Positions 7,892 through 25,987 of a DNA stretch of 64,000 nt are shown here, piece by piece. The position numbers and the translations under genes were made by a program. Each line of letters opens with the position of its first letter. Position 1 is the first letter of the stretch. The stretch comes from Coriobacteriia bacterium (lineage in GTDB: Bacteria > Actinomycetota > Coriobacteriia > Anaerosomatales > Anaerosomataceae), in NCBI GenBank assembly GCA_016938135.1, contig JAFGVD010000024.1, forward strand, positions 1-64,000. The letters run 5' to 3'. The notes under the pieces are model-generated. The model had not been told where the DNA came from. It was given only the letters and a program-made list of their open reading frames with translations, and made no database searches.

Positions 7892-9361
7892 TTAATGGGT
7901 AGCCGATGTCAGGGCGTCGTGCAAGCGTGTCAGAGTACGCTCCTTGCCCAGGAGCGCGATCGACTCGAACAGGGGAGGACTCACGGTAGAACCCGTGACG
8001 GCCACGCGCACCGCCTGAAAGACGACCTTGGGCTTGAGCTCGAGCGACCCGGGCAGTGTGCGCAAAGACTCCTCTACTGACGCAGCGTCGAACACATCGA
8101 GCCGGGATAGGACGTCGGCTGCCGCTTCAAGCGAGCGAGCCGCACCTTCCTTCATCAAGACCTTCTCCCGGGCGTCTTCGGCGATGCTGATCGCGTCGTC
8201 GAACAGGAACCGGACGACCCCGGCCACCTCATCCATCCTTTTGATGCGCTCAGACACCAATGGCGCCAGCTCTTCGAACCACGCACGCCGTGCTGCGACA
8301 TCCGCAGCATCGGTCAACCCCTCCGCTTCAAGCCACGGAACGATGCGATCCACCAGTCCTGACGCGGGCAGCTCGCGGATGTAGACGCCGTTCAACCACT
8401 CCAGCTTCTCTTCATCGAAGATGGCTGCATTGCGTGAGACGCGATCCAATGCGAAATTCTCGGCCAGCGTCTCACGAGAGAACACGGTCGTCTCGCCGTC
8501 GAGCGACCAGCCGAGAAGTGCCAGGTAGTTCAAGACAGCCTCAGGGATGTAGCCGAGGTCTCTGTAGGCCTCGACCGAGGTGGCACCGTGCCGCTTGGAG
8601 AGGCGCTTGCCATCAGAACCCAGGATCATCGACAGGTGAGCGAAGGTCGGCAAGGACTTGCCGAGTGCTTCGTAGATGAGTATCTGCTTGGGCGTGTTGG
8701 AGAGATGGTCGTCACCCCGGATCACATGGGTGATGGCCATCGTCGCATCGTCCACTGTGACCGCGAAGTTGTAGGTCGCGCTGCCGTCGGTGCGCACCAG
8801 TACCAGATCATCCACGGTATCGGCCGGGAACGTCACATCGCCTCTGACAGCGTCCGAGAAGACGATCTCGCCGCGATCTTCCGGTACTTTCAGGCGCCAT
8901 ACATGCGGCTCACCCGCAGCGATACGGGCTTTGGCCTCAGAGGGAGAGAGCGCACGACATGTGCGGTCATAGCCCGCAAAGCCGCCCTTGGAGCGGGCAG
9001 CATTCCGCTTGACCTCGAGCTCAGCGGGCGTACAGAAGCACGGGTACGTCGCCCCTGCACGCTTGAGCTCTTCCAGTGCCTCGGAGTAACTGGCCGTGCG
9101 CTGCGTCTGGAAGTAGGGACCGTACTGACCGCCTACGATCGGACCTTCGTCGTAGTCCATGCCCAGCCACTCCATCGCCCGCAAGATGGCCTGAGTGTTC
9201 TCCTCGGTAGAGCGTTCCGGATCCGTGTCTTCGATCCTCAATATGAACGTGCCGCCGTGTCGACGGGCAAACGCCCAGTTGTAGATGGCTGTACGTGCAC
9301 CACCTATGTGGAGATGGCCGGTTGGACTGGGCGCGAAACGAACTCGAACGTTCTCTGACAC
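7892..9361 (-). CDS. gltX: Glutamyl-tRNA synthetase
   Basis: A 489-residue class I synthetase that charges tRNA-Glu. The N-terminus VRFAPSPTGHLHIGGARTA holds the HIGH-type motif, and RLSKRHGATSVEAY near residue 253 is the KMSKS loop. The length is usual for the family. The start is GTG at 9361 with AGGAAGGA six bases upstream. It lies 19 bases downstream of the PsiE-like gene in the same direction, so the two may share a transcript. With glnS present as a separate gene, this enzyme is probably the discriminating type specific for tRNA-Glu (inference). Confidence 0.97.
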   Translation of the reverse strand: MSENVRVRFAPSPTGHLHIGGARTAIYNWAFARRHGGTFILRIEDTDPERSTEENTQAILRAMEWLGMDYDEGPIVGGQYGPYFQTQRTASYSEALEELKRAGATYPCFCTPAELEVKRNAARSKGGFAGYDRTCRALSPSEAKARIAAGEPHVWRLKVPEDRGEIVFSDAVRGDVTFPADTVDDLVLVRTDGSATYNFAVTVDDATMAITHVIRGDDHLSNTPKQILIYEALGKSLPTFAHLSMILGSDGKRLSKRHGATSVEAYRDLGYIPEAVLNYLALLGWSLDGETTVFSRETLAENFALDRVSRNAAIFDEEKLEWLNGVYIRELPASGLVDRIVPWLEAEGLTDAADVAARRAWFEELAPLVSERIKRMDEVAGVVRFLFDDAISIAEDAREKVLMKEGAARSLEAAADVLSRLDVFDAASVEESLRTLPGSLELKPKVVFQAVRVAVTGSTVSPPLFESIALLGKERTLTRLHDALTSATH

Positions 9362-9380
9362 GGGATTCCTTCCTAGGGTG

Positions 9381-9818
9381 TTAGTGAGCGGACTCCTGGT
9401 TGCCCTCTGCTTCGCAGACTCCGCTGCGGCGAAGCAGGTACCACGTCAAGCCGATAGCCACGATGAGGAGGGCGAGTGCGGCTGCCTTCATCAGGACATA
9501 CGTGGCATCTCCGCCGGACTCGAATATGACGAGCTTCCTGACAACGGCCACTAGGCCCGCCTCCATGACGGTGGCGATGACGTTCTTGCGCCGCATATAC
9601 GCAAGCGCGATGTTGAAGAGCTCGATGACGATGAACACGACCAGCACCGAGTCCAGGACACGCAGAATAGAATCGGGCGTGAGGTATCCGGTCTCTGAGA
9701 CCGCCGAATACATCTCAACGACAAGATCCACCGCGCCAAGACCGGCGATGACCACGAGCAACAGAGCGATGATCCTCTCCAGATAGTCGACTGCCACATG
9801 CATGAATCTGTGAAGCAC
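9381..9818 (-). CDS. PsiE-family small membrane protein
   Basis: A 145-residue protein with about four membrane segments: residues near 12-32 (ERIIALLLVVIAGLGAVDLV), 48-68, 80-100 and 110-128 (MKAAALALLIVAIGLTWYLL). The pattern matches the phosphate-starvation-inducible PsiE family (E. coli PsiE, 136 residues), whose biochemical function is unknown. The GTG start at 9818 is chosen because GGGAGG lies six bases upstream; a longer open frame reaching 10118 would run through the metK riboswitch on the other strand. A TATGAT -10-like element (complement of 9852-9857) lies 33 bases upstream. It is the first gene before gltX. Confidence 0.75.
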   Translation of the reverse strand: MLHRFMHVAVDYLERIIALLLVVIAGLGAVDLVVEMYSAVSETGYLTPDSILRVLDSVLVVFIVIELFNIALAYMRRKNVIATVMEAGLVAVVRKLVIFESGGDATYVLMKAAALALLIVAIGLTWYLLRRSGVCEAEGNQESAH

Positions 9819-9894
9819 GATGCACCTCCCTGTAGTCCGTTGACACACGACATCATAGCAGCCTAACAGCGGGCAGACCCTCCCTTCGGTCCTC

Positions 9895-9923
9895 TTGTAG
9901 ACCCGCACCCCGCATGGTAAGCT
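9895..9923 (+). promoter_or_regulatory. metK promoter
   Basis: TTGTAG (9895-9900), 17 bases and TAAGCT (9918-9923) preceded by TG one base upstream, an extended -10. The predicted start falls at about 9930, where the SAM riboswitch begins. Confidence 0.6.
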
Positions 9924-9930
9924 GCGTTCA

Positions 9931-10062
9931 CTCATCAAGAGGCAGTGCACGAGCACTGCAGAGGGTCGAGGGACCGCACCCGACGACACCCCGGCAACCG
10001 ACGTGAAAGCGACGCACGGTGCCACATTGCGGCAGGCGATCGATGGCCTGGCAGATGAGGGA
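9931..10062 (+). promoter_or_regulatory. SAM-I (S-box) riboswitch controlling metK
   Basis: P1 is CTCATC (9931-9936) paired with GATGAG (10054-10059). The S-box core is clear: ATCAAGAGG, then GAGGGACCGC, CCCGACGACACCCCGGCAACC, then GGTGCCACATTGCGGCAG. The arm GGCAGTGC/GCACTGC forms P2. The 3' strand of P1, GATGAGGGA (10054-10062), can instead pair with TCCCTCGTC (10093-10101), the 5' arm of the downstream terminator. So SAM binding should favour the terminator and shut metK off. The stretch 9819-10184 is filled by the promoter, this element and the terminator. Confidence 0.93.
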
Positions 10063-13991: not shown

Positions 13992-14489
13992 ATGGAGATC
14001 TTGACCCATCCAAATCCGGTTCTTAAGCAGAGAGCCGCTGAAGTAGACGTAGCAAGCGACAAAGACCTACGCCCACTCATCCGCAAGATGGCTGAGGCCA
14101 TGTACGAGAATGCGGGTGTTGGTCTTGCAGCACCACAGATCGGCGTTTCCAAGCGCGTGATCATCTTCGATGTGGACGACCAGCTATCGGCTTTGTGCAA
14201 CCCGGTGATCGTTGAAAGGTCTGAGGAGACGGAAGTCGATGAAGAGGGCTGTCTGTCTGTTCCCGGCATCTCGGTTCCCGTCAAACGGGCATGTTCGGTG
14301 GTCTGTACCGGCACCACCCTCGATGGCAAGGATGTCACGCTTCGGGCCGATGAGTTCCTTGCGCGCGTCTTGCAGCACGAGACCGACCACCTCGACGGCA
14401 CGATCATCCTCGACCGGCTTGATGCCGAGGAGCGAAAGAGCGCGATCAAAGCGTACAACGCCGCGAACGAGCCACTGCAGATAGGGTGA
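13992..14489 (+). CDS. def: Peptide deformylase
   Basis: A 165-residue metallo-enzyme that removes the formyl group from new polypeptides. All three motifs are intact: GVGLAAPQIG (42-51), EEGCLSVPG with the metal-binding Cys87, and QHETDHLDG with His129, Glu130 and His133. Size is typical. The ATG at 13992 has only a weak GGGAG about ten bases upstream. It leads an operon with fmt, the enzyme that adds the formyl group to Met-tRNA, and rsmB. Confidence 0.97.
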   Translation: MEILTHPNPVLKQRAAEVDVASDKDLRPLIRKMAEAMYENAGVGLAAPQIGVSKRVIIFDVDDQLSALCNPVIVERSEETEVDEEGCLSVPGISVPVKRACSVVCTGTTLDGKDVTLRADEFLARVLQHETDHLDGTIILDRLDAEERKSAIKAYNAANEPLQIG

Positions 14490-14509
14490 CGGTTCTCAAA
14501 GGGGGGCGC

Positions 14510-15433
14510 ATGAACGTCGTCTTCATGGGCACGCCCGATTTCGCTGTTCCCAGCCTGAGACTGCTGGCTGCACATCATGAAGTCAGCGCGGTCTACACCC
14601 GACCCGACGCCGTTTCCAGGCGCGGTAATGCCCTTGTCGCCCCGCCGGTGAAGGTCGTAGCCACCAAACTCGGTATCCCTGTGCATCAGCCGGGTTCATT
14701 GCGTGATCCGGTCGAGGTAGAGCGCCTTGCTGAACTTGCACCTGACGTCATCTGTGTTGCGGCGTACGGCATGATCCTGCCCAAAAACGTGCTGTCTATT
14801 CCTCGATTCGGTTGCATAAACGTCCATGCCTCGCTGTTGCCGCGTCACCGCGGCGCTGCGCCTGTCCATCGCGCGGTCTTGGACGGCGACGGGCTCCTCG
14901 GCGTGAGTATCATGCGGATGGAAGAAGGGCTCGACACCGGACCATACGCGATGCAGCGTAGCCTGCAAGGCGGCCAAATGAGCGTTGAGCAGCTCACCGA
15001 TCTTCTGGCCGAGCAGGGTGCCGAGGCTCTGCTGGAGGTGCTGGAACAGCTCGCCGGCGGGAGTGTCGAATGGGTCGCTCAAGACGACTCGGCTTCCACC
15101 TACGCCCCCAAGATCTCACGTGACGATGTCGCACTGCATCCGGATCTGTCGGTTGAAGATGCGCTTCGCCGGGTGCGCGCCTCCACAAAACAGGCACCAT
15201 CGCGCCTTCTTATCGGCGAGGTCATGGTGACTGTCGTGCACGCGAGCGATTCTCAGAAAGTCCTCAACCCCGGCGAGGTGAACGCTTCTCCGGACGGTCT
15301 CCTAATCGGTCTTGCGGACGGCGCACTGCGTCTGGATCGTATTCGCCCTGCAGGGAAGAGTGACATGGATGGCGGCGCATGGGTATGCGGCGCGAGATTG
15401 CCCCAACCGTGCAAATGGAAGGCGACATCATGA
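14510..15433 (+). CDS. fmt: Methionyl-tRNA formyltransferase
   Basis: A 307-residue enzyme that transfers formyl from 10-formyl-THF to initiator Met-tRNA. MNVVFMGTPDFAVPSL is the Rossmann start. The catalytic set Asn104, His106 and Asp142 sits in CINVHASLLPRHRGAAPVH and MEEGLDTGP. The C-terminal OB-like tRNA domain follows. ATG 14510 is preceded by a run of G; an in-frame ATG at 14486 would overlap the end of def. The stop overlaps the rsmB start (ATGA at 15430). Confidence 0.96.
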   Translation: MNVVFMGTPDFAVPSLRLLAAHHEVSAVYTRPDAVSRRGNALVAPPVKVVATKLGIPVHQPGSLRDPVEVERLAELAPDVICVAAYGMILPKNVLSIPRFGCINVHASLLPRHRGAAPVHRAVLDGDGLLGVSIMRMEEGLDTGPYAMQRSLQGGQMSVEQLTDLLAEQGAEALLEVLEQLAGGSVEWVAQDDSASTYAPKISRDDVALHPDLSVEDALRRVRASTKQAPSRLLIGEVMVTVVHASDSQKVLNPGEVNASPDGLLIGLADGALRLDRIRPAGKSDMDGGAWVCGARLPQPCKWKATS

Positions 15434-16794
15434 GAGTCTCCCCGTCGCGTCACGCAGCAATCGGAATCCTGTCCGACATCAGGAGGCGTGGAGCGTTCTC
15501 GCGCCCTGTCGTGGACGCTGCCGTCAATGCGTCGAGCCTCTCCCGTGAGGACGCGGCATTCGCTTCACGTCTGGTGTACGGGGTCATCACCGCCGAAGGG
15601 ATGCTTGACAACATCATCAACGAGTTCGCCAAACGCCCGGGCGCGGTAGAGCCACGCGTCAGAGATTCGCTACGGATGTCCATCTACGAGATCCTCTTCC
15701 TCAGGACTCCTGCGCGCGCGGCGGTCCATCAGGGAGTGGACGCAGTCCGGACCGTACGTCCGGCGGCATCCGGATTCGCGAACGCTGTGTTGCGTCGAGT
15801 CGCCGAGAGAGCCGACACGTTCCCGTGGGGAGATCCATCCAAAGACCGCGATGCGCTGGCGCGTGCCTCGGCCTCACCACGATGGCTGGTGGACCGGTTC
15901 ATCGACGATCTCGGCCTTGATGCGGCAACCGCCGCTCTCATGTCAGGACTTGAAGCGCCGCCCATGTTCGTTCGTGTCAATCCGTATCGGGCCACTGTCG
16001 AGGAGGCGTTCGACCTTCTGGCTGACGACGGCGCCATGCCTCAGTCCAGCCCACCGGATCAGGCATGTATCCGTTGTGATGGCGCCCGCGAGGCTGTCCA
16101 TGGACAGGCGCTAGAACGGGGCCTGGTCGTCGTCACCGACGCGGCTGCGCAGGTGGCTCCTCTTGCGTGCGCCCCGAAGCCCGGCTCGAAGATCCTCGAT
16201 GTCGGGGCTGGCAGGGGGACCAAGACGGCGGTCTTGCAGGGTATCGCGCTCGGTCAAGGCGGGCCCGCGGAAGTCACTGCCGTGGACATCCACGGGTTCA
16301 AGCTCGACACACTGGCGGTCACGATGTCGTCTTTGGGTATCCCTTCGGCCAGGACGGAAGTGCTTGACGCTACCGATGCCGCAGTACTGGAGGCGCTTGG
16401 CGACGGGTTCGACATAGTCCTGGTGGATGCCCCTTGTTCGGGACTGGGCACCTTGCGCAGGCACCCGGAGAAGCGCTGGCGCCTGGTTCCCGAGGACATA
16501 GAACGCCTTGTGAGCCTGCAATCGTCCCTGCTTGATGCGGCGTCACGCGCTGTTCGTCCGGGAGGAGTTGTGGTGTACTCTACGTGCACGGTCACCCGCG
16601 CAGAGAACCAAGGTGTCGTCTCGGCGTTTCTTGCCGGCGACAGGGGAGACGGGTTCGAGGTCAAACCACTGCACGATGCAGTGCCGGAAGACTGGCAACG
16701 CTTCATCACCACCGAGGGTATGTTCTGTTCGTGGCCGGAGTCCGGCGGCGCAGATGGACACTTCGTGGCTGCGCTTGCGCGAACACGTGCATAG
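15430..16794 (+). CDS. rsmB: 16S rRNA m5C967 methyltransferase
   Basis: A 454-residue protein with an N-terminal NusB-like RNA-binding domain (about 1-140) and a C-terminal SAM-dependent m5C methyltransferase. The SAM site is ILDVGAGRGTKTAVL. The two catalytic cysteines are in DAPCSGLGTLRRHPEKRW and VYSTCTVTRAEN. ATG 15430 overlaps the fmt stop and has GGAAGG about seven bases upstream; a start at 15379 would lie deep in fmt. The family methylates C967 of 16S rRNA in the P-site region. Confidence 0.95.
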   Translation: MRVSPSRHAAIGILSDIRRRGAFSRPVVDAAVNASSLSREDAAFASRLVYGVITAEGMLDNIINEFAKRPGAVEPRVRDSLRMSIYEILFLRTPARAAVHQGVDAVRTVRPAASGFANAVLRRVAERADTFPWGDPSKDRDALARASASPRWLVDRFIDDLGLDAATAALMSGLEAPPMFVRVNPYRATVEEAFDLLADDGAMPQSSPPDQACIRCDGAREAVHGQALERGLVVVTDAAAQVAPLACAPKPGSKILDVGAGRGTKTAVLQGIALGQGGPAEVTAVDIHGFKLDTLAVTMSSLGIPSARTEVLDATDAAVLEALGDGFDIVLVDAPCSGLGTLRRHPEKRWRLVPEDIERLVSLQSSLLDAASRAVRPGGVVVYSTCTVTRAENQGVVSAFLAGDRGDGFEVKPLHDAVPEDWQRFITTEGMFCSWPESGGADGHFVAALARTRA

Positions 16795-16827
16795 AACCGA
16801 ATCGCTTCGTATGAAGGAGGACATCCG

Positions 16828-17793
16828 ATGCGCAACACCCGTATCGTAGAGATGCTCGAGGTGACTGAGGCTGCCGCGCTGGCTGCAGGTCGCTGGATGG
16901 GCAAGGGGAACAAAGACGCTGCGGATCTTGCGGCCGTCGAGGCTATGCGTCAGGCGTTCGACATCTTGGATATCTCCGGTGAGATCGTCATCGGTGAGGG
17001 CGAACGAGATGAAGCACCGATGCTCTACATCGGCGAGAAGGTCGGTGGCGGCGGCGAGGAGATCGACATCGCTGTGGACCCGCTTGAGGGCACCAACCTC
17101 ACCGCATACGGGCAGCCCAACTCGCTCGCCGTGCTTGCGTTCGGTCCCAAGGGAACGCTTCTCAACGCGCCCGATACCTACATGTGGAAGGTCGCTGCCG
17201 GTCCAGCCGCCAACGGCGCTGTCCACATAGACGCCACTCCTACCGAGAACGTCATCAACGTGGCCAAAGCACTAAAACGTCCCGTCGAGGACATCGTCGT
17301 CTGCATCCTTGAGCGTGACCGCCACAACGATCTCATCAAAGAAGTCCGTGCTAGCGGAGCCAGGATACGTCTTATCTCGGACGGCGATGTGTTCGGCGCC
17401 GTCGCCACCGCCATCGAAGGCACAGGCATCCATCTCTACATGGGAGCAGGGGGCGCGCCTGAGGGTGTCTTGGCAGCCACTGCGATGAAGTGCATCGGCG
17501 GAACGTTCATGGGACGGTTCCAGTTCCGCAGTGATGAGGAACGGGCACGTGCCGAGAAGATGGCCAACTGCGATATCGACGAGGTTCTGACGATGGACTG
17601 TCTGGTCAACACCGATGAGGCGGCTTTCATCGCAACCGGCGTCACCGACGGCGAGCTCCTGCGCGGCGTGAAGTACTTCGGGCAGGGGGCACGCACTCAC
17701 TCGCTGGCGATGGACAACAAGACCGGCACCGTGCGTTTCATAGAGACGGTCTATCGCACGGGCAACGAGAAGTTCTGGGTCCGAATGGACTAA
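16828..17793 (+). CDS. glpX: Fructose-1,6-bisphosphatase class II
   Basis: A 321-residue GlpX-type phosphatase that converts fructose-1,6-bisphosphate to fructose-6-phosphate in gluconeogenesis. GEGERDEAPMLYIGE and DPLEGTNLTAYG carry the acidic metal ligands of the Li-sensitive phosphatase fold, and FMGRFQF and MDNKTGTVRFIET are also family-typical. ATG 16828 has AAGGAGG seven bases upstream. Its stop codon abuts the FmdB stop on the other strand, and its likely terminator lies inside fmdB at 17848. Confidence 0.97.
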   Translation: MRNTRIVEMLEVTEAAALAAGRWMGKGNKDAADLAAVEAMRQAFDILDISGEIVIGEGERDEAPMLYIGEKVGGGGEEIDIAVDPLEGTNLTAYGQPNSLAVLAFGPKGTLLNAPDTYMWKVAAGPAANGAVHIDATPTENVINVAKALKRPVEDIVVCILERDRHNDLIKEVRASGARIRLISDGDVFGAVATAIEGTGIHLYMGAGGAPEGVLAATAMKCIGGTFMGRFQFRSDEERARAEKMANCDIDEVLTMDCLVNTDEAAFIATGVTDGELLRGVKYFGQGARTHSLAMDNKTGTVRFIETVYRTGNEKFWVRMD

Positions 17794-18090
17794 CTACTCA
17801 GCTGCAGGGCATCCGGCACACGCGGATTCGCCACCAGATGAAGGACAGGAGCCGGCCGCCGTGGCCGGTTCCTTCTTTTCTGCGACTCCGTTGGTCGCCG
17901 GTGTGGCTGGAACCCTGCGCGAGTCAGTGTTGTAGAAGCCGCTGCCCTTGAAGTGCACACCTACCGGCGTGAACACCCGCTTGGTCTGCCCACCGCACTC
18001 AGGACAGAGCACGTCTGAAGAGTCTGAGAACTTACGCACGATCTCAAACGTCGTGTCACAGACGGTGCAGCGGAAGTCATACGCGGGCAT
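17794..18090 (-). CDS. FmdB-family zinc-ribbon protein
   Basis: A 98-residue protein. The N-terminus MPAYDFRCTVCDTTFEIVRK and then LCPECGGQTKRVF give two Cys-x2-Cys knuckles of the FmdB/regulatory zinc-ribbon family. FKGSGFYNTDS is the usual end of that domain. The tail is low complexity with a second cysteine group (SCPSSGGESACAGCP). GAAAGGA seven bases before ATG 18090 decides the start. The family is often called a formamidase regulator, but the role in most bacteria is unknown. The 3' end is convergent with glpX with no gap. Confidence 0.88.
   Translation of the reverse strand: MPAYDFRCTVCDTTFEIVRKFSDSSDVLCPECGGQTKRVFTPVGVHFKGSGFYNTDSRRVPATPATNGVAEKKEPATAAGSCPSSGGESACAGCPAAE
17848..17881 (+). 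terminator. glpX terminator inside the fmdB coding region
   Basis: GGAGCCGGCC (17848-17857) pairs with GGCCGGTTCC (17863-17872) with one G-U pair, loop GCCGT, followed by TTCTTTTCT. It works in the glpX direction and is antisense to fmdB codings for its low-complexity tail. Confidence 0.72.
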
Positions 18091-18126
18091 AAGAGCGTCC
18101 TTTCTCAAACAGCAGCAAAGACCCAT

Positions 18127-18140
18127 GCACCCGAAGGTGC
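18127..18140 (-). other. Leader hairpin of the fmdB mRNA
   Basis: GCACC and GGTGC pair around a four-base loop, in the stretch between the fmdB promoter and start codon. Confidence 0.4.
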
Positions 18141-18150
18141 GGGAACGTGC

Positions 18151-18180
18151 AGAATACAACGGCCTCAAGCGCTTCTGCAA
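18151..18180 (-). promoter_or_regulatory. fmdB promoter
   Basis: On the minus strand TTGCAG (complement of 18175-18180), 18 bases and TATTCT (complement of 18151-18156). It lies back to back with the PASTA-gene promoter. Confidence 0.55.
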
Positions 18181-18191
18181 GGACGGTCAAT

Positions 18192-18200
18192 TGGTATACT
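18192..18200 (+). promoter_or_regulatory. Extended -10 of the PASTA gene
   Basis: TGGTATACT, a TG-n-TATACT extended -10. It ends seven bases before ATG 18208, so the transcript should start at or next to the start codon. Confidence 0.6.
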
Positions 18201-18207
18201 CGCCCAC

Positions 18208-19278
18208 ATGACGGACAGACCACGCAGAAAACGTCTTGTCGCTGTATGGTTGCTTCCCTCGCTCGCCGCGATCGTGCTGGTGATATCGGGAGGCGCGCTG
18301 CTTGTGCGCGCCAACTATGTCTCCGCGCTCATCTCAACGCCTGACGTCACAGGACGCCCCGACTCCACCGCACGTGAGAACCTGAGCTTGTCCGGACTCT
18401 CCTACGAGGTGTCGGGAAGGCAGTTCTCCGCCGATGTCCCTGAAGGTTCCGTTCTCTCTCAGCTGCCGGCCGCCGGTGAGCGCGTGGAGCGAGGGACTGT
18501 TGTGAGGGTGGTCCTCTCGGCGGGCACCGAGAGCCTTGTGATGCCGGACCTGATAGGTCTGCCGCTACAGGCCGCCAGGGACAGACTACGGGATCTGGGG
18601 CTCGGTTCGTCGGTCCAAGATGTCGTGTCCGAAGCGGAGGCGGGCACGGTCCTTGCGTCGTTCCCGGCCGCCGGAGCCGATGTCCGCACGGGAACGTCGG
18701 TGCGACTCTCTGTCGCAACGGGCGGGGACGTGGTCGACTCGCTGCTGCCGTATGATCTCCACGATGTCATCGTTGCGCTGGACCCGGTAGGGGTCGAGGG
18801 CGATACCCAGGATGTGAGCATGGACATCGCCAGACGGCTGAGGTCCCTGCTTGAAGCCTCTGGCGCCACCGTGACGATGTCGCGTTCCTCCACAGAAGGG
18901 GTCGTCCCTGACGCGGTCAGAGCCAGCGCCATCGCTTCACCGGCGCCCGACGTCGCCGTCGGGATAGCACTTTCCTCCACGCAGAAGCCAGGGATCACAG
19001 CTATCGTCTTGCGGTCGTTAGAGTCCTCTACCACCGAGCGTTCTCTCGCACTGGGAAAGGAGTTCACCGCATCCGTCAGACTGCCGGGGCAAAGCGTGAA
19101 CGCCTATCAGAGCGACAACGATGCGGTACTCGGCAAGCTCCTTGCTCCTGGAATGCGGGTGTACGTGGGCGATCCGGATGATCCGGACGATGCGATCAGG
19201 TTCCAGGACCCGGATTGGGCGGACGCGGTCTCAAGAGCCTTATACAAGTCAATAGGCGACCTCTGGGCACCCAGATGA
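18208..19278 (+). CDS. Membrane PASTA protein with degenerate amidase_3-like domain
   Basis: A 356-residue protein. A positively charged start and one membrane segment (about 11-33) place the rest outside the cell. Two PASTA repeats follow (about 43-105 and 110-172: TPDVTGRPDSTARENL and MPDLIGLPLQAARDRL), which in this fold bind peptidoglycan or muropeptides. Residues 186-356 follow the outline of zinc N-acetylmuramoyl-alanine amidases: IVALDPVGVEGDT, RRLRSLLEASGATVTMSR, DVAVGIALSS, and DDAIRFQDPDWADAV. The usual DPGHGG and SIHAN histidines are missing (DPVGVEG and GIALS), so it is probably not an enzyme. No ribosome-binding site is present and the gene looks leaderless. The next gene is an active-looking M23 peptidase. 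The amidase relationship is my reading by pattern, not proven. Confidence 0.78.
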   Translation: MTDRPRRKRLVAVWLLPSLAAIVLVISGGALLVRANYVSALISTPDVTGRPDSTARENLSLSGLSYEVSGRQFSADVPEGSVLSQLPAAGERVERGTVVRVVLSAGTESLVMPDLIGLPLQAARDRLRDLGLGSSVQDVVSEAEAGTVLASFPAAGADVRTGTSVRLSVATGGDVVDSLLPYDLHDVIVALDPVGVEGDTQDVSMDIARRLRSLLEASGATVTMSRSSTEGVVPDAVRASAIASPAPDVAVGIALSSTQKPGITAIVLRSLESSTTERSLALGKEFTASVRLPGQSVNAYQSDNDAVLGKLLAPGMRVYVGDPDDPDDAIRFQDPDWADAVSRALYKSIGDLWAPR

Positions 19279-19328
19279 TTCATGTAGACTGGCGATAGCG
19301 TCCCTGAAGCGGACAGGTGGAGTTACCT

Positions 19329-20336
19329 ATGCGTTCTGGAAAGCTGACTGCGGTGCTGGCGGTGCTCATGGCGATCTCCCTGCTCACGCCGGATGTCGCA
19401 CTAGCGGCTAAGTCAGAGATAGGGCAGCTTGAAGATCAGCTTGCAGACGTAAGGGCTCAGGCCGAGAAGGCCGGCGAGGCATATTCGGAAGCCTATTGGG
19501 TCCTGGACAAGACCAACGCCTCAATCGCACAGAGCGACAAGGAACTCGCACAGCTCAAAGAGGAACTGGCAGTCGCCTCCGCTAGCCTGTCAGAACGTGC
19601 AGTGGAGATGTACCGCTCGGGCAGTGTCGACTACCTGATGCTGCTCTTCTCGGCAGAAACGCTCGATGAGATGCTGATGAGGCTCGAGTACGTCCAGCGA
19701 CTGGGTCTGCAGGATGCCGAGACCATCGCTCACGTGAAGACACTTCAAGGCGAGATCAATGAGAAACGCTCCCAGGTCCTTGAACTCCAGGAGACCCAGG
19801 CGGACGAAGCGGCGAAGCTGAAGAAGAAGTCAGACGCGCTACAAGACAAGCTCGCGGATATCCAGGCAGACTACGACGCGTTGCAGGCGAAACTGGATGC
19901 CGCCCGGAAAGCGACCAATCAGCCCGCATCCGCCAAGCCCGGCGCCAACGGCATGGTGTTCCCGGTCAAAGGCGCCTACACCTACACTGACACATGGGGT
20001 GCTGCCAGGTCCGGAGGTCGCAGTCACCAGGGAACCGACATCATGGCCAGCCATGGGACCCCGCTGGTAGCGGTCATGTCCGGCACGATCCGCAGCAAGT
20101 CCAACACGCTTGGAGGCCTGACGATCTGGCTGACCGCAGACAACGGATGGGCCTTCTACTACGCGCATCTCAACGGCTATGCGAAGACGTCCGGACGCGT
20201 CAGCGCAGGCGAGGTCATCGGCTATGTGGGGAGCACCGGTAATGCGTCGGCAAGTGCTCCGCACTGCCATTTCGAGATCCATCCCAATGGCGGATCGGCC
20301 GTCAATCCGTATCCGTATCTGAAGGCGATGGAATGA
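19329..20336 (+). CDS. Secreted M23 (LytM) peptidase with N-terminal coiled coil
   Basis: A 335-residue cell-wall hydrolase. Residues 1-27 are a signal peptide (AVLAVLMAISLLTPDVALAA). Residues 28-195 are a long coiled coil rich in Glu, Lys, Gln and Leu, as in EnvC-like and PcsB-like proteins. Residues 208-330 are the M23 domain with zinc ligands His233 and Asp237 (SHQGTDIM) and His314 in APHCHFEI, plus His280 in YYAHL, so it should be active as a peptidoglycan endopeptidase. ATG 19329 has AGGTGGAG six or seven bases upstream. It lies 50 bases after the PASTA gene. Confidence 0.92.
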   Translation: MRSGKLTAVLAVLMAISLLTPDVALAAKSEIGQLEDQLADVRAQAEKAGEAYSEAYWVLDKTNASIAQSDKELAQLKEELAVASASLSERAVEMYRSGSVDYLMLLFSAETLDEMLMRLEYVQRLGLQDAETIAHVKTLQGEINEKRSQVLELQETQADEAAKLKKKSDALQDKLADIQADYDALQAKLDAARKATNQPASAKPGANGMVFPVKGAYTYTDTWGAARSGGRSHQGTDIMASHGTPLVAVMSGTIRSKSNTLGGLTIWLTADNGWAFYYAHLNGYAKTSGRVSAGEVIGYVGSTGNASASAPHCHFEIHPNGGSAVNPYPYLKAME

Positions 20337-20352
20337 CGGTTGCACGCACGGG

Positions 20353-20366
20353 CCTCGCATGCGAGG
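20353..20366. repeat. Perfect palindrome CCTCGCATGCGAGG
   Basis: A 14-base palindrome between the M23 stop and the TPP riboswitch. It has no T-run, so it is a weak terminator candidate or an operator; no partner is known. Confidence 0.4.
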
Positions 20367-20384
20367 ATTGTGCGCGTATCGATC

Positions 20385-20470
20385 ACCCGTATCGGGAGCT
20401 GCGTGAGCGGCTGAGAGGCGGCCACGTGCCGCGACCGAAAGACTGCACCGGTAATGCGGAGCAGCAAGAC
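20385..20470 (+). promoter_or_regulatory. TPP (thi-box) riboswitch before thiT
   Basis: The thi-box elements occur in order: GGGAGCTGCG, GGCTGAGAGG (20409-20418), a GCGGC/GCCGC hairpin, GCGACCGAAAG, and CTGCACCGGTAATGCGGAGC (20443-20462), which matches the second pyrophosphate-sensing helix. GCTGC (20398) pairs with GCAGC (20461) as P2. Downstream, CACTCC (20508-20513) is the exact complement of GGAGTG (20544-20549), which contains the ribosome-binding site of thiT, so control is probably at translation. The following genes import and activate thiamine, which supports the call. Confidence 0.88.
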
Positions 20471-20553
20471 GGCGGGAGCCTTCTTCTTGGGCTCTCTCTC
20501 AAGTCCTCACTCCTCCCACGCCGCGTCCCGCGGCCGTGAGAATGGAGTGGCAA

Positions 20554-21144
20554 GTGTCCAAGAACAGCCTCACCACCAGAAGTGAACGTGTCCGCTTGAT
20601 CGCCGAGATAGGCCTCAGCATCGCACTGGCCGTTGTGCTGGGAATGATGAAGGTCTGGCAGATGCCGCAAGGCGGAGAGATCTCGCTGGCCATGCTTCCG
20701 CTGCTTGTCCTGTCATTCAGACGCGGTATCTTGCCCGGGTTGTTGGCCGGTGCCCTGTACGGAGTCCTGGATGCGCAGCTCAATCCCTTCGTGGTCCATT
20801 GGGTACAGTACATCCTCGACTATCCGCTGGCTTATGCCGTTGTCGGTCTGGCAGGCGTCACGGCCGCTCAGCTGCGCGCTTCCGTCGGCCGATCAGGCCT
20901 CACTGTCGGTCTCATCGCAGGGGGCACTGCGCTGGGCGCGGTCGCACGCTACGCCGCCCACGTCGTCTCCGGCGCTGTCTTCTTCGGCGAGTACGCGCCT
21001 GCCGGACAGCCGGTAGTGCTCTACTCGGCTGGGTACAACTCTTTTGTGCTCGTCTCGGCCGTAGCATGCGCTGCCGCAGCCATAGCCATCGTGCCCGTGC
21101 TGTCCCGCGTGGTACCCGTTCGCAAGGAGATCCTCGCGCCATGA
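20554..21144 (+). CDS. thiT: Thiamine transporter, ECF S-component
   Basis: A 196-residue membrane protein with about six hydrophobic segments. GLSIALAVVLGMMKVWQMPQ, GGEISLAMLPLL, GALYGVLDAQ and ILDYPLAYAVVGLAGV match the ThiT family, which binds thiamine and works with the shared ECF ATPase module. The GTG at 20554 is chosen because GGAG lies six bases upstream; ATG 20542 and GTG 20536 lie inside or before that site. It is under the TPP riboswitch and overlaps thiN by four bases. Confidence 0.9.
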   Translation: MSKNSLTTRSERVRLIAEIGLSIALAVVLGMMKVWQMPQGGEISLAMLPLLVLSFRRGILPGLLAGALYGVLDAQLNPFVVHWVQYILDYPLAYAVVGLAGVTAAQLRASVGRSGLTVGLIAGGTALGAVARYAAHVVSGAVFFGEYAPAGQPVVLYSAGYNSFVLVSAVACAAAAIAIVPVLSRVVPVRKEILAP

Positions 21145-21785
21145 TTGCCATGATCGTCGGTGCCGCGCCAGTGGCCGGATCCGAAGCGCTCGTCACCGGG
21201 CTCGCCAAGGAGTGTCAGCTCGTGGTCGCTGCGGATGCCGCAGGCGAGTGGTGCATCTCGGCCGGTGTCCTGCCGGACATAGCAGTGGGCGACTTCGATT
21301 CCGCGCGTCCGGGCGCGGAAAGACGCCTGAGCAGTGCTGGCGTGCGCGTCATCAGGCACCCTGCCGAGAAGGACGAGAGCGACCTCGACCTCGCGGTTGC
21401 GGCTGCCCGCGACGCCGGCGCCACGCGACTGGTGTTCTCGGCATGCACGAGCGCACGTCTCGACCATACGCTCGCCGCGCTCGGGACCGTGGCGGCGAAC
21501 GCCGATCTTCACCCGATGATCCGTGAACCGCATCTCACGGCTTGGGCGGTCACGTCAACGAATAATGGATGCCTCGCGTTGACGCTGCCGTCGGGCACGA
21601 CCATCTCGGTGATCGCGATAGGGGAGGCAAGCGGGGTCACCCTCGACGGCTTCATGTATCCGCTTGCCGACGCGACGCTCGACCCGCTCTCGTCACGAGG
21701 CATCAGCAACGTGACGACCAGCGACAGCTCTACGGTCCGTGTGAGCTCCGGCACCTTGCTGGTGGTGGTTTCAGGCGACTCATAG
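21141..21785 (+). CDS. thiN: Thiamine pyrophosphokinase
   Basis: A 214-residue enzyme that converts thiamine to TPP with ATP. GDFDSARPG (residues 50-58) is the acidic Mg-ATP site, HPAEKDESDLDLAV is the second family motif, and ARLDHTLAAL the third. ATG 21141 overlaps the thiT stop (ATGA), with AAGGAG 11 bases upstream. With thiT it forms a salvage unit governed by its own product through the riboswitch. No thiC, thiG or thiE is in view. Confidence 0.93.
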   Translation: MIAMIVGAAPVAGSEALVTGLAKECQLVVAADAAGEWCISAGVLPDIAVGDFDSARPGAERRLSSAGVRVIRHPAEKDESDLDLAVAAARDAGATRLVFSACTSARLDHTLAALGTVAANADLHPMIREPHLTAWAVTSTNNGCLALTLPSGTTISVIAIGEASGVTLDGFMYPLADATLDPLSSRGISNVTTSDSSTVRVSSGTLLVVVSGDS

Positions 21786-21886
21786 GGCACATTCCTTGAG
21801 GTATGCACTCTAGTCCCGGGGTTTTACTGCCGATACTGGCAGAAGGCGGGCAAGCCCGTGCTCATATCGGGGGATGGTAGCAGCAT

Positions 21887-23635
21887 ATGTCGCAGCACAC
21901 TAACAACAGCAGCACCGAGCGTCGCTCCAATGGTGCGATCGTCCTGGGGGCGATCGCACTGGTGCTGGTTGCGCTCATAAGCGGGATCACACATTCAGGC
22001 GTCGCCGCGCTGTCCGCAGGCTTCGTCGCGTGCGTGATCATCTGGCTTGTCACACGCTCAGCCAAGACCGTCGCACTGCCGATCGTCCAGCCACTCATCT
22101 ACGAACCTCCAGCGCCCGTATTCGAGCCACCGCGCGTTCCGCCCACCCTTGAACTGGACGTTGTGGTGCGCTCACTGATGGATGCGTGCATCGGTAGAGG
22201 CCGGGCAGTGGCTGCTCATCTGTGGATGGAAGACCCATCAAGCGGAACGCTGAGGCTCGTCCAATCCGTCGGGCCTATGGCCCCGTCCTCTCAGCCTGTC
22301 ACCCTGGATGACCCCATCCTCGGAGAAGCTGTCCGAGAGACGCATGCAGTGCTTGAACAGCTTGCCCGCATCCGCACGATGGACCAGGAGAGACTGGTCT
22401 GGCGTTACGCGATGCCACTGGACGCGGGCGACAGCATGGGGGTCGCCGCCATTGATATCGAGTCTGATGAACAGCCTGACGGCGAGCTGCTCGCACGATC
22501 GACGGCGCCCATCCGCGGCGCCCTGGCCGGCGCTCTGGCCATACATATCGCCCGCTCGGAGATGGACATCGCCAGGAACCTGGTTGAAGTTGCGCGCGAC
22601 TTGAGCAGGGTGCTTGACCCCAAAGAAGTCATCGAAGCCACCATGGAGCGTGCGGTCAGGCTCTGTGATGCAGCGACGGCGAGCATCATGCTCTTTGATG
22701 ACGAGCGCAAAGCACTCGTGATAGAGAGCTCATTCGGTCTGCCGGCTGAGGTCGTGGAGCGAACCGTGATCCCAGCCGGGGAGGGGATCGCCGGTTGGGT
22801 ACTCGCAACCGGACAGCCGCTCCTGATAGAAGACCTCCCGACGCGGCAACGACCCGGTCGTCGACATGGCGTCAGGTCGGCAGTGTCGGTTCCTCTCGGC
22901 GATGACGACGGGATCCTCGGTGTCATCAACGTGGGCAGCCGTTCTTTCCCGGCACGATTCACCGACTCGCATCTGCATGCGCTTGAGACCCTGGGAAAGC
23001 AGTCGGCGGTCGCCCTCAGAAACGCCCGGGCCGTCGACGCTTCACGTGACCTGTACTTCGATACGCTGAGAGCGTTGAGCCTGGCCCTGGAGACAAAAGA
23101 CCCGTACGCCAGCGGGGGGACCGATCGCGTCGTCGAATACACAGTGGCTATGGGTGCCGCATTCGGACTCGAGGATGATCAGCAAGAGGCCCTACGGATA
23201 GCCGCTCTGCTCCACGACATCGGCATGGAGATCGTGGGGGAATCGGTCAGAAACGAGAGCAGACCGCTATCCACGGTCGAGCAGGCTTTGCTCAAGATGC
23301 ATCCGCAGGTCGCCATGGAGATACTTGAACAAGCACCTGCGCTACGCAACGTCGCGCCCATCGTGTATCACCACCATGAGTGGTTCGACGGGCATGGGTA
23401 CGTGGGTGGGCTTGCGGGCGAGTCGATCCCTCTAGGAGCGAGAATACTCGCGGTGGCAGACGCGTTCGTCGCCATGACGTCGGCTCGTCCGTATCGAGCT
23501 GCGATGACAGCGGGTGAAGCCCTTACAGAGCTGGGAGACAAAGCTGGGACCCAATTCGACCCTGCCGTAGTGGACATCTTCACAGAAGTCCTTGGCGAGC
23601 AGACGAACCGGGTCCCACAAGAACCAAAATCGTGA
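21887..23635 (+). CDS. Membrane GAF-GAF-HD-GYP signalling protein
   Basis: A 582-residue protein. Two membrane segments at about 17-34 and 37-56 are followed by a first, divergent GAF-like region (85-225), a clear GAF domain (245-385, with AGEGIAGWVLATGQPLLIED), and an HD-GYP domain (395-575). The HD pair is His443-Asp444 in ALLHDIGME. The second motif is HHEWFDGHGYVGGL (from His496) and RILAVADAFVAMTSARPYR follows. HD-GYP proteins hydrolyse cyclic di-GMP; here the Pro of GYP is Val. The ligand of the GAF domains is unknown. The 101 bases before the gene hold a small hairpin (CTGCC/GGCAG) and no riboswitch I recognise. Confidence 0.88.
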   Translation: MSQHTNNSSTERRSNGAIVLGAIALVLVALISGITHSGVAALSAGFVACVIIWLVTRSAKTVALPIVQPLIYEPPAPVFEPPRVPPTLELDVVVRSLMDACIGRGRAVAAHLWMEDPSSGTLRLVQSVGPMAPSSQPVTLDDPILGEAVRETHAVLEQLARIRTMDQERLVWRYAMPLDAGDSMGVAAIDIESDEQPDGELLARSTAPIRGALAGALAIHIARSEMDIARNLVEVARDLSRVLDPKEVIEATMERAVRLCDAATASIMLFDDERKALVIESSFGLPAEVVERTVIPAGEGIAGWVLATGQPLLIEDLPTRQRPGRRHGVRSAVSVPLGDDDGILGVINVGSRSFPARFTDSHLHALETLGKQSAVALRNARAVDASRDLYFDTLRALSLALETKDPYASGGTDRVVEYTVAMGAAFGLEDDQQEALRIAALLHDIGMEIVGESVRNESRPLSTVEQALLKMHPQVAMEILEQAPALRNVAPIVYHHHEWFDGHGYVGGLAGESIPLGARILAVADAFVAMTSARPYRAAMTAGEALTELGDKAGTQFDPAVVDIFTEVLGEQTNRVPQEPKS

Positions 23636-23642
23636 ACGCGTA

Positions 23643-23831
23643 CTAGCCGCGCTGAACCTTGCCGGCCTTCATGCACTTCGTGCACACATTCATCTTCTTC
23701 GTCGTACCATCGACCACGACTGACACCTTCTGGATGTTCGGGTGGAACATACGATTGGTGACGCGGTGCGAGTGGCTGACGTTGCGACCCGCGCTGGGAT
23801 GCTTCCCACACACGCTGCAAACCTGCGACAT
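23643..23831 (-). CDS. rpmB: Ribosomal protein L28
   Basis: A 62-residue protein. [30 protein letters not shown] and [12 protein letters not shown] are L28 signatures. Two Cys-x2-Cys pairs make this the zinc-binding (C+) form. ATG 23831 is chosen because L28 starts at this position; a GTG 18 bases upstream is in frame. GGAGGAG lies nine bases before the ATG. It is convergent with the HD-GYP gene, seven bases apart. Confidence 0.96.
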
Positions 23832-23891
23832 CTCTACCGACTCCTCCACAGTTCAAAGCGCGCTTAGCGCTCATAGACGAAAAACGCACAT

Positions 23892-23921
23892 ATACTAACA
23901 TGCGAGAACCAACACCGACAA
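23892..23921 (-). promoter_or_regulatory. rpmB promoter
   Basis: On the minus strand TTGTCG (complement of 23916-23921), 18 bases and TAGTAT (complement of 23892-23897). Confidence 0.5.
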
Positions 23922-23967
23922 GCGGCGTGTCAAACCAAGAGCACTGGCATCATACCCCGATCTTTCG

Positions 23968-23975
23968 GCTATACT
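23968..23975 (+). promoter_or_regulatory. -10 box for the yloU-fakA operon
   Basis: TATACT at 23970-23975, 34 bases before the yloU start, with no convincing -35. It is divergent from the rpmB promoter. Confidence 0.45.
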
Positions 23976-24009
23976 TGTTCGAATCAAATGCGCGAAGGAA
24001 GGCACCGAC

Positions 24010-24363
24010 ATGACCGAGACGATACAGGGCACGATCACGATCGCGAACGACGTCCTTGCGGACATCGCAGGGTTCGTTGCGCTCGAGTGCTATGGAGTGG
24101 TCGGCATGGCGAGTCCGTCGTTGCGAGACGGCGTTGCGCAACTTCTTTCACGTGACAAGCTGCGCAAGGGCGTCGTCATCACCAATGACGACGATGCTCA
24201 CGTCCGCACGGACCTCTACATCGTCGTGGAGCACGGCACGAATCTCGCAGAGGTATCCCGTAACCTGGTAGACCGAGTCAAGTACGCGCTCACCCATGAC
24301 GCTGACGTCCAGGTGAACGCCGTCAATGTCCACGTACAGGGCATCAAGGTCCGCAAGCCATAA
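24010..24363 (+). CDS. Asp23/Gls24 (YloU) family protein
   Basis: A 117-residue protein. It begins TIQGTITIANDVLADIAGFV and contains VVGMASPSLRDGV and VQVNAVNVHVQGIKV, the pattern of the Asp23/YloU family. The family is often paired with the FakA-type kinase in Gram-positive bacteria, as here, but its molecular function is not settled. AAGGAAGG lies before ATG 24010. The spacing to the next gene is 13 bases. Confidence 0.92.
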   Translation: MTETIQGTITIANDVLADIAGFVALECYGVVGMASPSLRDGVAQLLSRDKLRKGVVITNDDDAHVRTDLYIVVEHGTNLAEVSRNLVDRVKYALTHDADVQVNAVNVHVQGIKVRKP

Positions 24364-24376
24364 CCTGGAGTCGCTG

Positions 24377-25987
24377 ATGACAGATCAAGCCCGCCGTGCG
24401 ACGGCAGTACAACTCGTCGCCGCCGCCGCTGACGCGCTGAAGGCCCACAAGGACGAGATAAACAGACTCAACGTCTTTCCGGTGCCCGACGGCGATACCG
24501 GCACGAACATGTCTCTCACCATGGATGCAGTGATCGCCGATCTTAGCGACCTGGGTCCTGATGCTGGTCTCTCCGAGGTAGGCAAAGCCATACAGCACGG
24601 ATCGCTGATGGGGGCTCGCGGCAACTCGGGCGTCATCCTCAGTCAGATACTGCGCGGCCTATGCGAGGTCGTAGGCAGCTCAGCGGAACTCACCCCCCAC
24701 GTGATCGCCGATGCGCTCGATCGCTCGACGACGGTCGCCTTCCAGGCCGTGCGCAAGCCGGTCGAAGGCACCATGCTCACCGTTCTCAAAGACACCGCGA
24801 AAGTGGCACGTACGGGAGTCGAGGCAGGATCCTCGCTAGACGAGCTCCTCGAGTCGATAGTCCAGGCAGCCTACGAATCGGTCCGTCGAGGTCCCGATCT
24901 GCTACCCGTGCTCAAGGAGAACGGTGTAGTGGATGCGGGTGGATTCGGTCTTGCCGTTCTCGCAGAAGGGTTCGTGGCGGCCATGGAGGGTCACGAGTTC
25001 AAAGCGCGCGACCTGACTCTGACCACTGAGTCGGTGAGAGTCGAAGTAGTGGACGACTGGGACGACGAGGAGTACCTCTACTGCACCGAGTTCCTTCTCT
25101 TCGGAGCAGACGCCGGGCTGACGTTCCTCGAGGACTGGATCGCTCAGAAGGGCGGTTCGCAGCTTGTCGTGGGTGACAGCGAAGTCTACAAGATCCACGT
25201 GCACACCGATGACCCCGGTAGCGTCATCGCCTGGGCTACGTCACTGGGCGAAGTGGGCGAGGTCCACATCCACAACATGCGTCGCCAGACCGCCGAACGC
25301 AGCAAGGGGCTGAAGGAGAACACGGAGCCTCCCAAGCCTATCGGCTTTGTGGCCGTGGCGGCCGGTTCGGGGATGGCAGACATCCTTAGAAGCCTTGGGG
25401 TCGATCAGGTCGTTAGCGGCGGCCAGACGATGAACCCGTCCACTGCCGAGCTGCTCGAGGCCGTGGAGCAGGTCAACGCCCATAGCGTCATCATCCTCCC
25501 AAACAACAAGAACATCGTGATGGCGGCGCAGCAAGTACCCGCCGTTGCCGATCGCTCGGTCTACGTGGTGCCCACCACCTCTGTGCCTGAGGCCTTTGCA
25601 GCCCTCCTGGGATTCGATGCAACCGCATCTGCAGAAGACGCGGTCAAGGCCATGACCGAGGCGGCTTCTTACGTGACCACAGGTGAAGTCACCACAGCCA
25701 TCAAGGACTCAAAGGCAAAGTCCGGCCCCATCAAGGCCGGCCAGGTCATCGGCATCAGCAACCACGAGATAGAGATCGTCGGAGACGATATCGTGGATGT
25801 CGCGGTGCAGCTCGTGGGCGTGATCGCCGAGGATGCCGAGACGCTCACGATACTTGCTGGCGAGGACCTCACTCAAGATGAACTCAGCCGTATAACGGCC
25901 GCAGTGGAGGACGCACATCCTGATCTGGAGATCGAGACTCACGAGGGTGGACAGCCGCTCTACCCGGTGGTGCTCGCAGCCGAGTGA
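24377..25987 (+). CDS. fakA: Fatty-acid kinase FakA-like (DAK/YloV family)
   Basis: A 536-residue protein. The N-terminal DhaL-type ATP domain has NVFPVPDGDTGTNMSLTMDA, with metal-binding Asp38, Asp40 and neighbouring Asn44. A middle domain and a C-terminal DegV-like domain (about 330-536) follow, the full FakA/YloV layout. FakA phosphorylates fatty acids held by a DegV-family FakB, and such a protein is the next gene. CTGGAG six bases before ATG 24377 decides the start. The acyl-phosphate it makes feeds the PlsX/PlsY route; plsX lies at 34.6 kb. Confidence 0.92.
   Translation: MTDQARRATAVQLVAAAADALKAHKDEINRLNVFPVPDGDTGTNMSLTMDAVIADLSDLGPDAGLSEVGKAIQHGSLMGARGNSGVILSQILRGLCEVVGSSAELTPHVIADALDRSTTVAFQAVRKPVEGTMLTVLKDTAKVARTGVEAGSSLDELLESIVQAAYESVRRGPDLLPVLKENGVVDAGGFGLAVLAEGFVAAMEGHEFKARDLTLTTESVRVEVVDDWDDEEYLYCTEFLLFGADAGLTFLEDWIAQKGGSQLVVGDSEVYKIHVHTDDPGSVIAWATSLGEVGEVHIHNMRRQTAERSKGLKENTEPPKPIGFVAVAAGSGMADILRSLGVDQVVSGGQTMNPSTAELLEAVEQVNAHSVIILPNNKNIVMAAQQVPAVADRSVYVVPTTSVPEAFAALLGFDATASAEDAVKAMTEAASYVTTGEVTTAIKDSKAKSGPIKAGQVIGISNHEIEIVGDDIVDVAVQLVGVIAEDAETLTILAGEDLTQDELSRITAAVEDAHPDLEIETHEGGQPLYPVVLAAE

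Follow-up and report, generated by a model that had tools for sequence, protein, structure and literature searches.

A membrane-anchored PASTA protein with an amidase-fold domain lacking zinc ligands in the Coriobacteriia

The PASTA gene, its product and its locus

The window analysed here, a stretch of 64,000 nucleotides from a bacterium of the Coriobacteriia (order Anaerosomatales), carries on its forward strand a gene for a protein of 356 amino acids, which we term PASTA-pseudoamidase. The gene (positions 18208–19278, ATG start) is defined by its open reading frame, its Pfam matches and the alignment of 61 orthologues. A short, basic cytoplasmic tail (MTDRPRRKR) precedes a transmembrane helix at residues 15–39 (18250–18324), which was assigned from the helix delineated by DSSP in the AlphaFold2 model and from the NCBIfam PASTA-kinase model. 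Two PASTA repeats follow (Pfam, E = 1.3e-27), the first spanning residues 45–104 (18340–18519) and the second, for which the two stretches reported by Pfam and the strands and helix of the model are the evidence, spanning residues 109–172 or thereabouts (18532–18723). With its repeats set behind a membrane helix, the protein has the arrangement of PASTA domain proteins, and the anchor and paired repeats proposed in the initial annotation are borne out by both Pfam and the model. Residues 4–201 correspond to positions 325–528 of the NCBIfam PASTA-kinase model, that is, to the TM–PASTA region that follows the kinase. A kinase domain is absent: Pfam detects none in the 356-residue protein, and the NCBIfam score of 93 bits is below the cut-off, which is 450.

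The remainder of the chain, residues 185–356 (18760–19275), constitutes the pseudo-amidase domain. Pfam (hmmscan) matches residues 201–349 to Amidase_3 (PF01520) with an E-value of 5.3e-8 and a score of 33.5 bits, compared to a cut-off of 27, the score in the genome search being 35.6 bits; moreover, a profile of the domain retrieves amidases of the PDB in a sequence search. The AlphaFold2 model, built with the 61 orthologues as the alignment, has a mean pLDDT of 92 and a pTM of 0.57, so that the relative arrangement of its domains is not fixed. Comparison of residues 185–356 of this predicted model with solved Amidase_3 enzymes gives Z-scores of 20–22 and deviations of about 2–2.6 Å over 160–175 residues; the structures matched are 4rn7, 5emi, Rv3717, AmiB–EnvC (8c0j), LytH–ActH (7tj4), CwlD–GerS (7rag), AmiC (4bin) and CwlV (1jwq). 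Residues 40–173, approximately, superimpose on the PASTA chains of PknB and PrkC with Z-scores of 12–13 in VIA-align. As modelled, the C-terminal domain has the Amidase_3 three-dimensional fold, and the amidase_3 outline previously read from the sequence is upheld by the Pfam score and by the fold comparison that had been proposed as a check on it.

The 61 full-length orthologues, among which the window protein is counted, all derive from open, full-length genes of the order. Each of the order's 69 genomes gave a match in the protein search, many of the matches being to PASTA kinases only. Gene order at the locus is very constant across the order and runs def, fmt, rsmB, glpX, fmdB (on the reverse strand), PASTA-pseudoamidase, a gene for an M23 peptidase where present, thiT, thiN, a GAF-HD gene, an asp23-like gene and a DAK-like gene. 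Three families from other orders (f17, f20 and f21) have homologues covering most or all of the length of the protein; these also lie behind def–fmt–rsmB, and mostly glpX, and no M23 gene is present at their locus. The large families f18, f19 and f22 of the same class have PASTA kinases only. A search at E = 1e-35 of 396 genomes of the phylum returned no full-length relative from outside the class; three matches from outside it cover TM–PASTA positions only, and two of these lie in reading frames as long as that of a kinase. The sole match in a single-sequence scan of contigs was a PASTA kinase from a Lachnospiraceae contig.

Within the window, the thiamine genes thiT and thiN (20337–21785) follow directly downstream of the M23 gene. 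Positions 17700–21900 contain neither a TPP riboswitch nor any other match to Rfam, and the stretch gave no sign of a promoter or terminator. One genome (G068; locus L124, 5563–6332) contains a partial repeat of the start of leuS together with the C-terminal half of the PASTA-pseudoamidase gene, mutually out of frame; this second 'copy' of the domain is a scrambled repeat with leuS, possibly an assembly fault or a recent tandem duplication.

Loss of the active site and conservation of the domain

Active-site positions were located by alignment to the sequence of the CwlD crystal structure, which places the first zinc-binding histidine at residue 195, the zinc-binding glutamate at about residue 200, the second histidine at residue 254 and the catalytic glutamate at residue 319. 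The equivalent of the DPGHGG sequence in the window protein is DPVGVEG. Its DPGH zinc-ligand motif (18781–18792) has become DPVG, with DPxP in most relatives, and the SIHAN zinc-ligand motif (18961–18975) has become GIALS. Both glutamates are also lost, their places being taken by Thr200 and by Tyr319 (19162–19164), the latter position being occupied by mixed residues in the relatives. Histidine is found in none of the 61 orthologues at residue 195, where 54 have proline, or at residue 254, where 38 have aspartate, as had been claimed for the zinc histidines of the window protein; only 12 have Glu or Asp at residue 200. In the ten aligned homologues from other orders, the first histidine position is taken by Tyr, Phe or Trp. 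As a control, 32 Amidase_3 paralogues encoded by these genomes were sampled, and both histidine motifs were found in 30, the remaining two being missed by the simple motif pattern. The loss of the histidines is far beyond chance and is not a sequencing error. To judge from the alignments, the metal-binding and catalytic residues were lost before the sampled lineages split.

A relocated zinc site was also considered. Each of the four active-site positions, with the four columns on either side of it, is free of histidine in all 61 orthologues, and a relocated site is ruled out because 36 of the 61 domains contain no histidine whatsoever.

Separate from these proteins is another divergent Amidase_3-like family, seen at four loci (L200, L201, L202 and L203, in genomes G018, G017, G033 and G049, respectively) in frames of about 312–337 amino acids. 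Its members match the profile only from about position 47–57 onwards, and the frames read keep a WQPSHQ and a V[SA]VH motif; it is possibly an unusual but active amidase.

What is retained in the pseudo-amidase domain differs from what has been lost. Asp192, Asp202, Gly262, Gly321 and Asp328 are invariant in the 61 aligned orthologues, and Arg209, Arg210, Arg226, Arg238, Arg317, Phe332, Asp334, Pro335, Trp337, Asp339 and Tyr346 are at least 90% conserved. Asp192, Arg226, Arg238, Gly262, Gly321 and Asp328 are also common in active paralogues and form a general signature of the fold, the paralogue counts being lower bounds since some paralogue rows of the distant-homologue alignment are in the wrong frame; Asp202, Arg210, Arg317, Trp337, Asp339 and Tyr346 are more typical of the PASTA-pseudoamidase family. 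Asp202, Arg210, Arg226, Gly321, Asp339 and Tyr346 are kept in all ten aligned distant homologues. Because these conserved residues persist, and do so in the distant homologues as well, the domain is under selection as a non-enzyme and is not decaying. That the gene is a functionless relic of an enzyme is, in our judgement, most improbable. Its loss from two genomes (G012 and G029; see below) shows that it can be dispensed with, but it is open and full-length throughout the orthologues and has homologues in f17, f20 and f21 as well, and both its invariant residues and its fixed genomic position are at odds with decay.

Conservation is concentrated in core positions and in two helices, residues 203–219 and 335–353, whereas the four former active-site positions have lost their residues and are mostly variable. 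This distribution bears on a further explanation, namely that the protein is a peptidoglycan-binding decoy that would hold stem peptides uncut in the old amidase groove. The complete retention of the fold, as predicted, would suit such a decoy, but the variability of the old catalytic pocket argues against a simple retention of the ancestral mode of peptide binding, and the residues that have been conserved lie elsewhere. We therefore regard the decoy as distinctly unlikely.

The M23 peptidase and its association with the PASTA gene

A second gene on the same strand (19317–20336, GTG start) begins after a gap of 38 bases and encodes a coiled-coil M23 peptidase of 339 amino acids. Pfam identifies Peptidase_M23 (E = 1.1e-20) and CC_PcsB (E = 1.4e-6). 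The model of the protein consists of a long coiled-coil hairpin of the EnvC/PcsB/RipC type, formed by residues 34–199 (19416–19913), and an M23 catalytic domain (19944–20330) delimited by Pfam, the orthologue alignment and structure matches. The ligands His237, Asp241, His284, His316 and His318 are invariant in 42 sequences, and the active site is thus not degenerate in the manner of the LytM domain of EnvC; the description of the next gene as a coiled-coil M23 enzyme with all of its zinc ligands is confirmed. The model matches EnvC bound to FtsX (6tpi) and FtsEX–EnvC (8tzl), and its coiled coil alone matches FtsEX–RipC (8idc). The two-domain matches have rmsd values of 16–17 Å, so the similarity holds domain by domain. 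A sequence search also likens the protein to those of the EnvC/PcsB type.

FtsX with its extracellular domain (FtsX_ECD) was found in all 21 genomes searched, and in Gram-positive bacteria, FtsEX acts directly on coiled-coil hydrolases of this kind (PMC11627006). Given the EnvC/PcsB-type layout, the presence of FtsX and this known action of FtsEX, the M23 peptidase is more likely, by analogy, to be a client of FtsEX than a partner of PASTA-pseudoamidase. In none of the loci read does any M23 gene lie beside ftsEX. At locus L185 (G000:C30, 7277–10039), ftsE–ftsX are followed by a gene that, by eye, encodes an S41-like processing peptidase, with no adjoining M23 gene, and the layout of locus L191, from family f16, is similar.

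The initial annotation proposed that the inactive amidase fold steers or activates this M23 enzyme. In such an arrangement, a mirror image of the action of EnvC on amidases, the dead amidase would bind and switch on the adjacent peptidase, with the PASTA repeats serving as a sensor. A mild argument for coupling is that the M23 gene directly follows the PASTA-pseudoamidase gene in 43 of the 57 genomes that could be judged, four contigs that end too early having been left out. Contact between LytM and amidase domains is, moreover, a real interface in AmiB–EnvC (8c0j; PMC12505981). In amidases of the E. coli type, however, the contact with EnvC is made by an interaction helix (PMC12505981), and AmiB spans about 230 residues, compared to the 169 aligned in the model, so that the pseudo-amidase is without long insertions.

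The distribution of the two genes does not support the proposal. In the remaining 14 of the 57 genomes, the M23 gene does not follow the PASTA gene. Where it is absent from the locus, it was found on another contig in eight of nine genomes of family f14, in one of two of family f3 and in the genome of family f9; in family f16, the PASTA-pseudoamidase is present but a close M23 orthologue is found in none of the four genomes. Conversely, at locus L173 of genome G012 (about 8561–9983), fmdB is followed immediately by an intact coiled-coil M23 gene, the PASTA gene having been deleted from what is one continuous contig. In the other orders, the locus includes the PASTA gene but no M23 gene, and among these relatives clear M23 orthologues occur in f21 only, on other contigs. 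Each gene therefore occurs without the other, and the pairing is not obligate. The survey that had been suggested as a test of the proposal thus gives a divided answer, since the loss of the histidines extends to all 61 orthologues, but the two genes are neighbours elsewhere in only part of the order and in none of the loci of other orders.

Correlated divergence of the two proteins is weak and not robust. A partial Mantel analysis of the pseudo-amidase against the M23 peptidase domain covered 33 genomes and, with simple distances, gave r = 0.33 (p = 0.003), which is higher than the values for thiT or thiN. With tree distances, however, r falls to 0.23 (p = 0.056), and leaving out family f12 brings it to 0.08. 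Because the two genes dissociate in both directions and the Mantel result is weak, we conclude that pairing with M23 is neither ancestral nor obligate, although it is possible in some lineages, and that any contact with the M23 peptidase may be opportunistic or lineage-specific. Dedicated activation of the M23 enzyme by the dead amidase is accordingly unlikely.

Position at the prkC locus, proposed role and comparison with known systems

In Bacillus subtilis, def–fmt–rsmB lie just upstream of the prkC region and yloU–yloV, which are asp23- and DAK-like, lie downstream. On a Lachnospiraceae contig (L035), the order is PP2C, PASTA kinase, rsgA, rpe and thiN, the genes having been named by eye. 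The window at 13992–25987 parallels the Bacillota region def–fmt–rsmB–prpC–prkC–rsgA–rpe–thiN–yloU–yloV, with glpX, fmdB and PASTA-pseudoamidase in place of the phosphatase–kinase pair. The order prpC–prkC–cpgA (rsgA) is conserved in Firmicutes (PMC6449344). From this conserved gene order around prkC, we infer that PASTA-pseudoamidase occupies the place where Bacillota keep PrkC, and its descent from a PrkC that had lost its kinase is plausible. A bolder version, which we consider fairly unlikely, has an ancestral PASTA kinase at def–fmt–rsmB exchanging its kinase for a dead amidase and so becoming a purely extracellular relay, in which PASTA would read muropeptides and the pseudo-amidase would hand the signal on, either to PknB or to hydrolases of the wall.

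At another locus, the genome encodes a complete PASTA kinase, with PP2C and FHA genes and an FtsW/PBP-like frame alongside, these neighbours having been named by eye. PASTA-pseudoamidase might on this account be a co-receptor of a kinase of the PknB/PrkC type, pairing with it through PASTA or sharing its ligands and thereby tuning wall signalling. The match of its TM and PASTA parts to the corresponding region of the PASTA-kinase model and the location of its gene at the Bacillota PrkC position (PMC6449344) are in keeping with this suggestion. The short cytoplasmic tail nevertheless offers little surface for signalling, and the position at the PrkC locus could reflect coincidence or history only, so we hold a co-receptor function to be improbable.

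On balance, we favour the interpretation that PASTA-pseudoamidase is an ancient PASTA receptor or scaffold that lacks a kinase and uses its amidase fold as a binding module, and not a dedicated activator of M23. Its architecture and fold, the loss of the active site in all members examined, the conserved residues, the fixed locus and the dissociation of the gene pair all favour this interpretation. In this view, the two PASTA repeats, turned towards the wall, and the Amidase_3-fold domain, devoid of metal-binding and catalytic residues, would be anchored on the outer face of the membrane by a single helix. PASTA would provide the link to wall structure and the pseudo-amidase that to other proteins, the two together binding peptidoglycan fragments or wall proteins. 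The protein may cut nothing itself and instead recruit or tune other wall enzymes, the main candidate partners being active amidases, synthases and the PASTA kinase. Weighing against this interpretation are the variable positions of the old catalytic pocket, the adjacency with M23 in 43 of the 57 genomes and genome G029, which is 99% complete and has neither the PASTA-pseudoamidase nor the M23 gene at the locus, so that the function is not indispensable everywhere. Lineages in which one gene or the other has been lost show what PASTA-pseudoamidase does not depend on.

Dead hydrolases that act as regulators are known, but we found no published description of a PASTA and amidase_3 protein of this kind in the literature searched, in which the combination of PASTA with a dead amidase, widely conserved and located at the PrkC position, appears to be undescribed. 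It offers a natural example of PASTA sensing separated from a kinase, and its conservation extends across several orders within a single class. Like PrkC, PknB and Stk1, PASTA-pseudoamidase has a transmembrane helix followed by PASTA repeats, and its locus matches the Bacillota prpC–prkC–rsgA–rpe–thiN locus; unlike them, it has no kinase domain and carries a dead amidase at its C-terminus instead. With CwlV, AmiC, Rv3717, CwlD and LytH, it has in common the fold and structural residues (the first Asp of DPGHGG, Arg226, Arg238 and Gly321), whereas the zinc ligands and the catalytic glutamate of these enzymes are missing. The M23 neighbour has the same layout of coiled-coil hairpin and hydrolase as the FtsEX-controlled proteins PcsB, RipC and EnvC, from which it differs in that its gene is not beside ftsEX.

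The conversion of dead hydrolases into regulators is a recurring theme of the cell wall, exemplified by EnvC, NlpD and CwlM. The activators EnvC and NlpD are dead peptidoglycan hydrolase folds with a regulatory role, and pairs of LytM and amidase domains do occur in nature. In E. coli, however, it is the M23 fold that is dead and the amidase that is active, which is the reverse of the situation here, where, in addition, the pair is not obligate. CwlM of Mycobacterium, also an actinobacterium, has an Amidase_3 fold with degenerate His/Arg positions in its amidase domain, those of the zinc histidines included, and is a regulator of wall synthesis, not an enzyme, tied to a PASTA kinase pathway (PMC4946905); the role proposed for PASTA-pseudoamidase would be similar in principle. 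CwlM differs in being cytoplasmic, without PASTA repeats or a transmembrane helix, and in acting on MurA when phosphorylated (PMC4946905). PASTA-pseudoamidase shares with it the loss of the zinc histidines from an amidase_3 domain, but that domain is predicted to face the wall, behind a transmembrane helix and two PASTA repeats.
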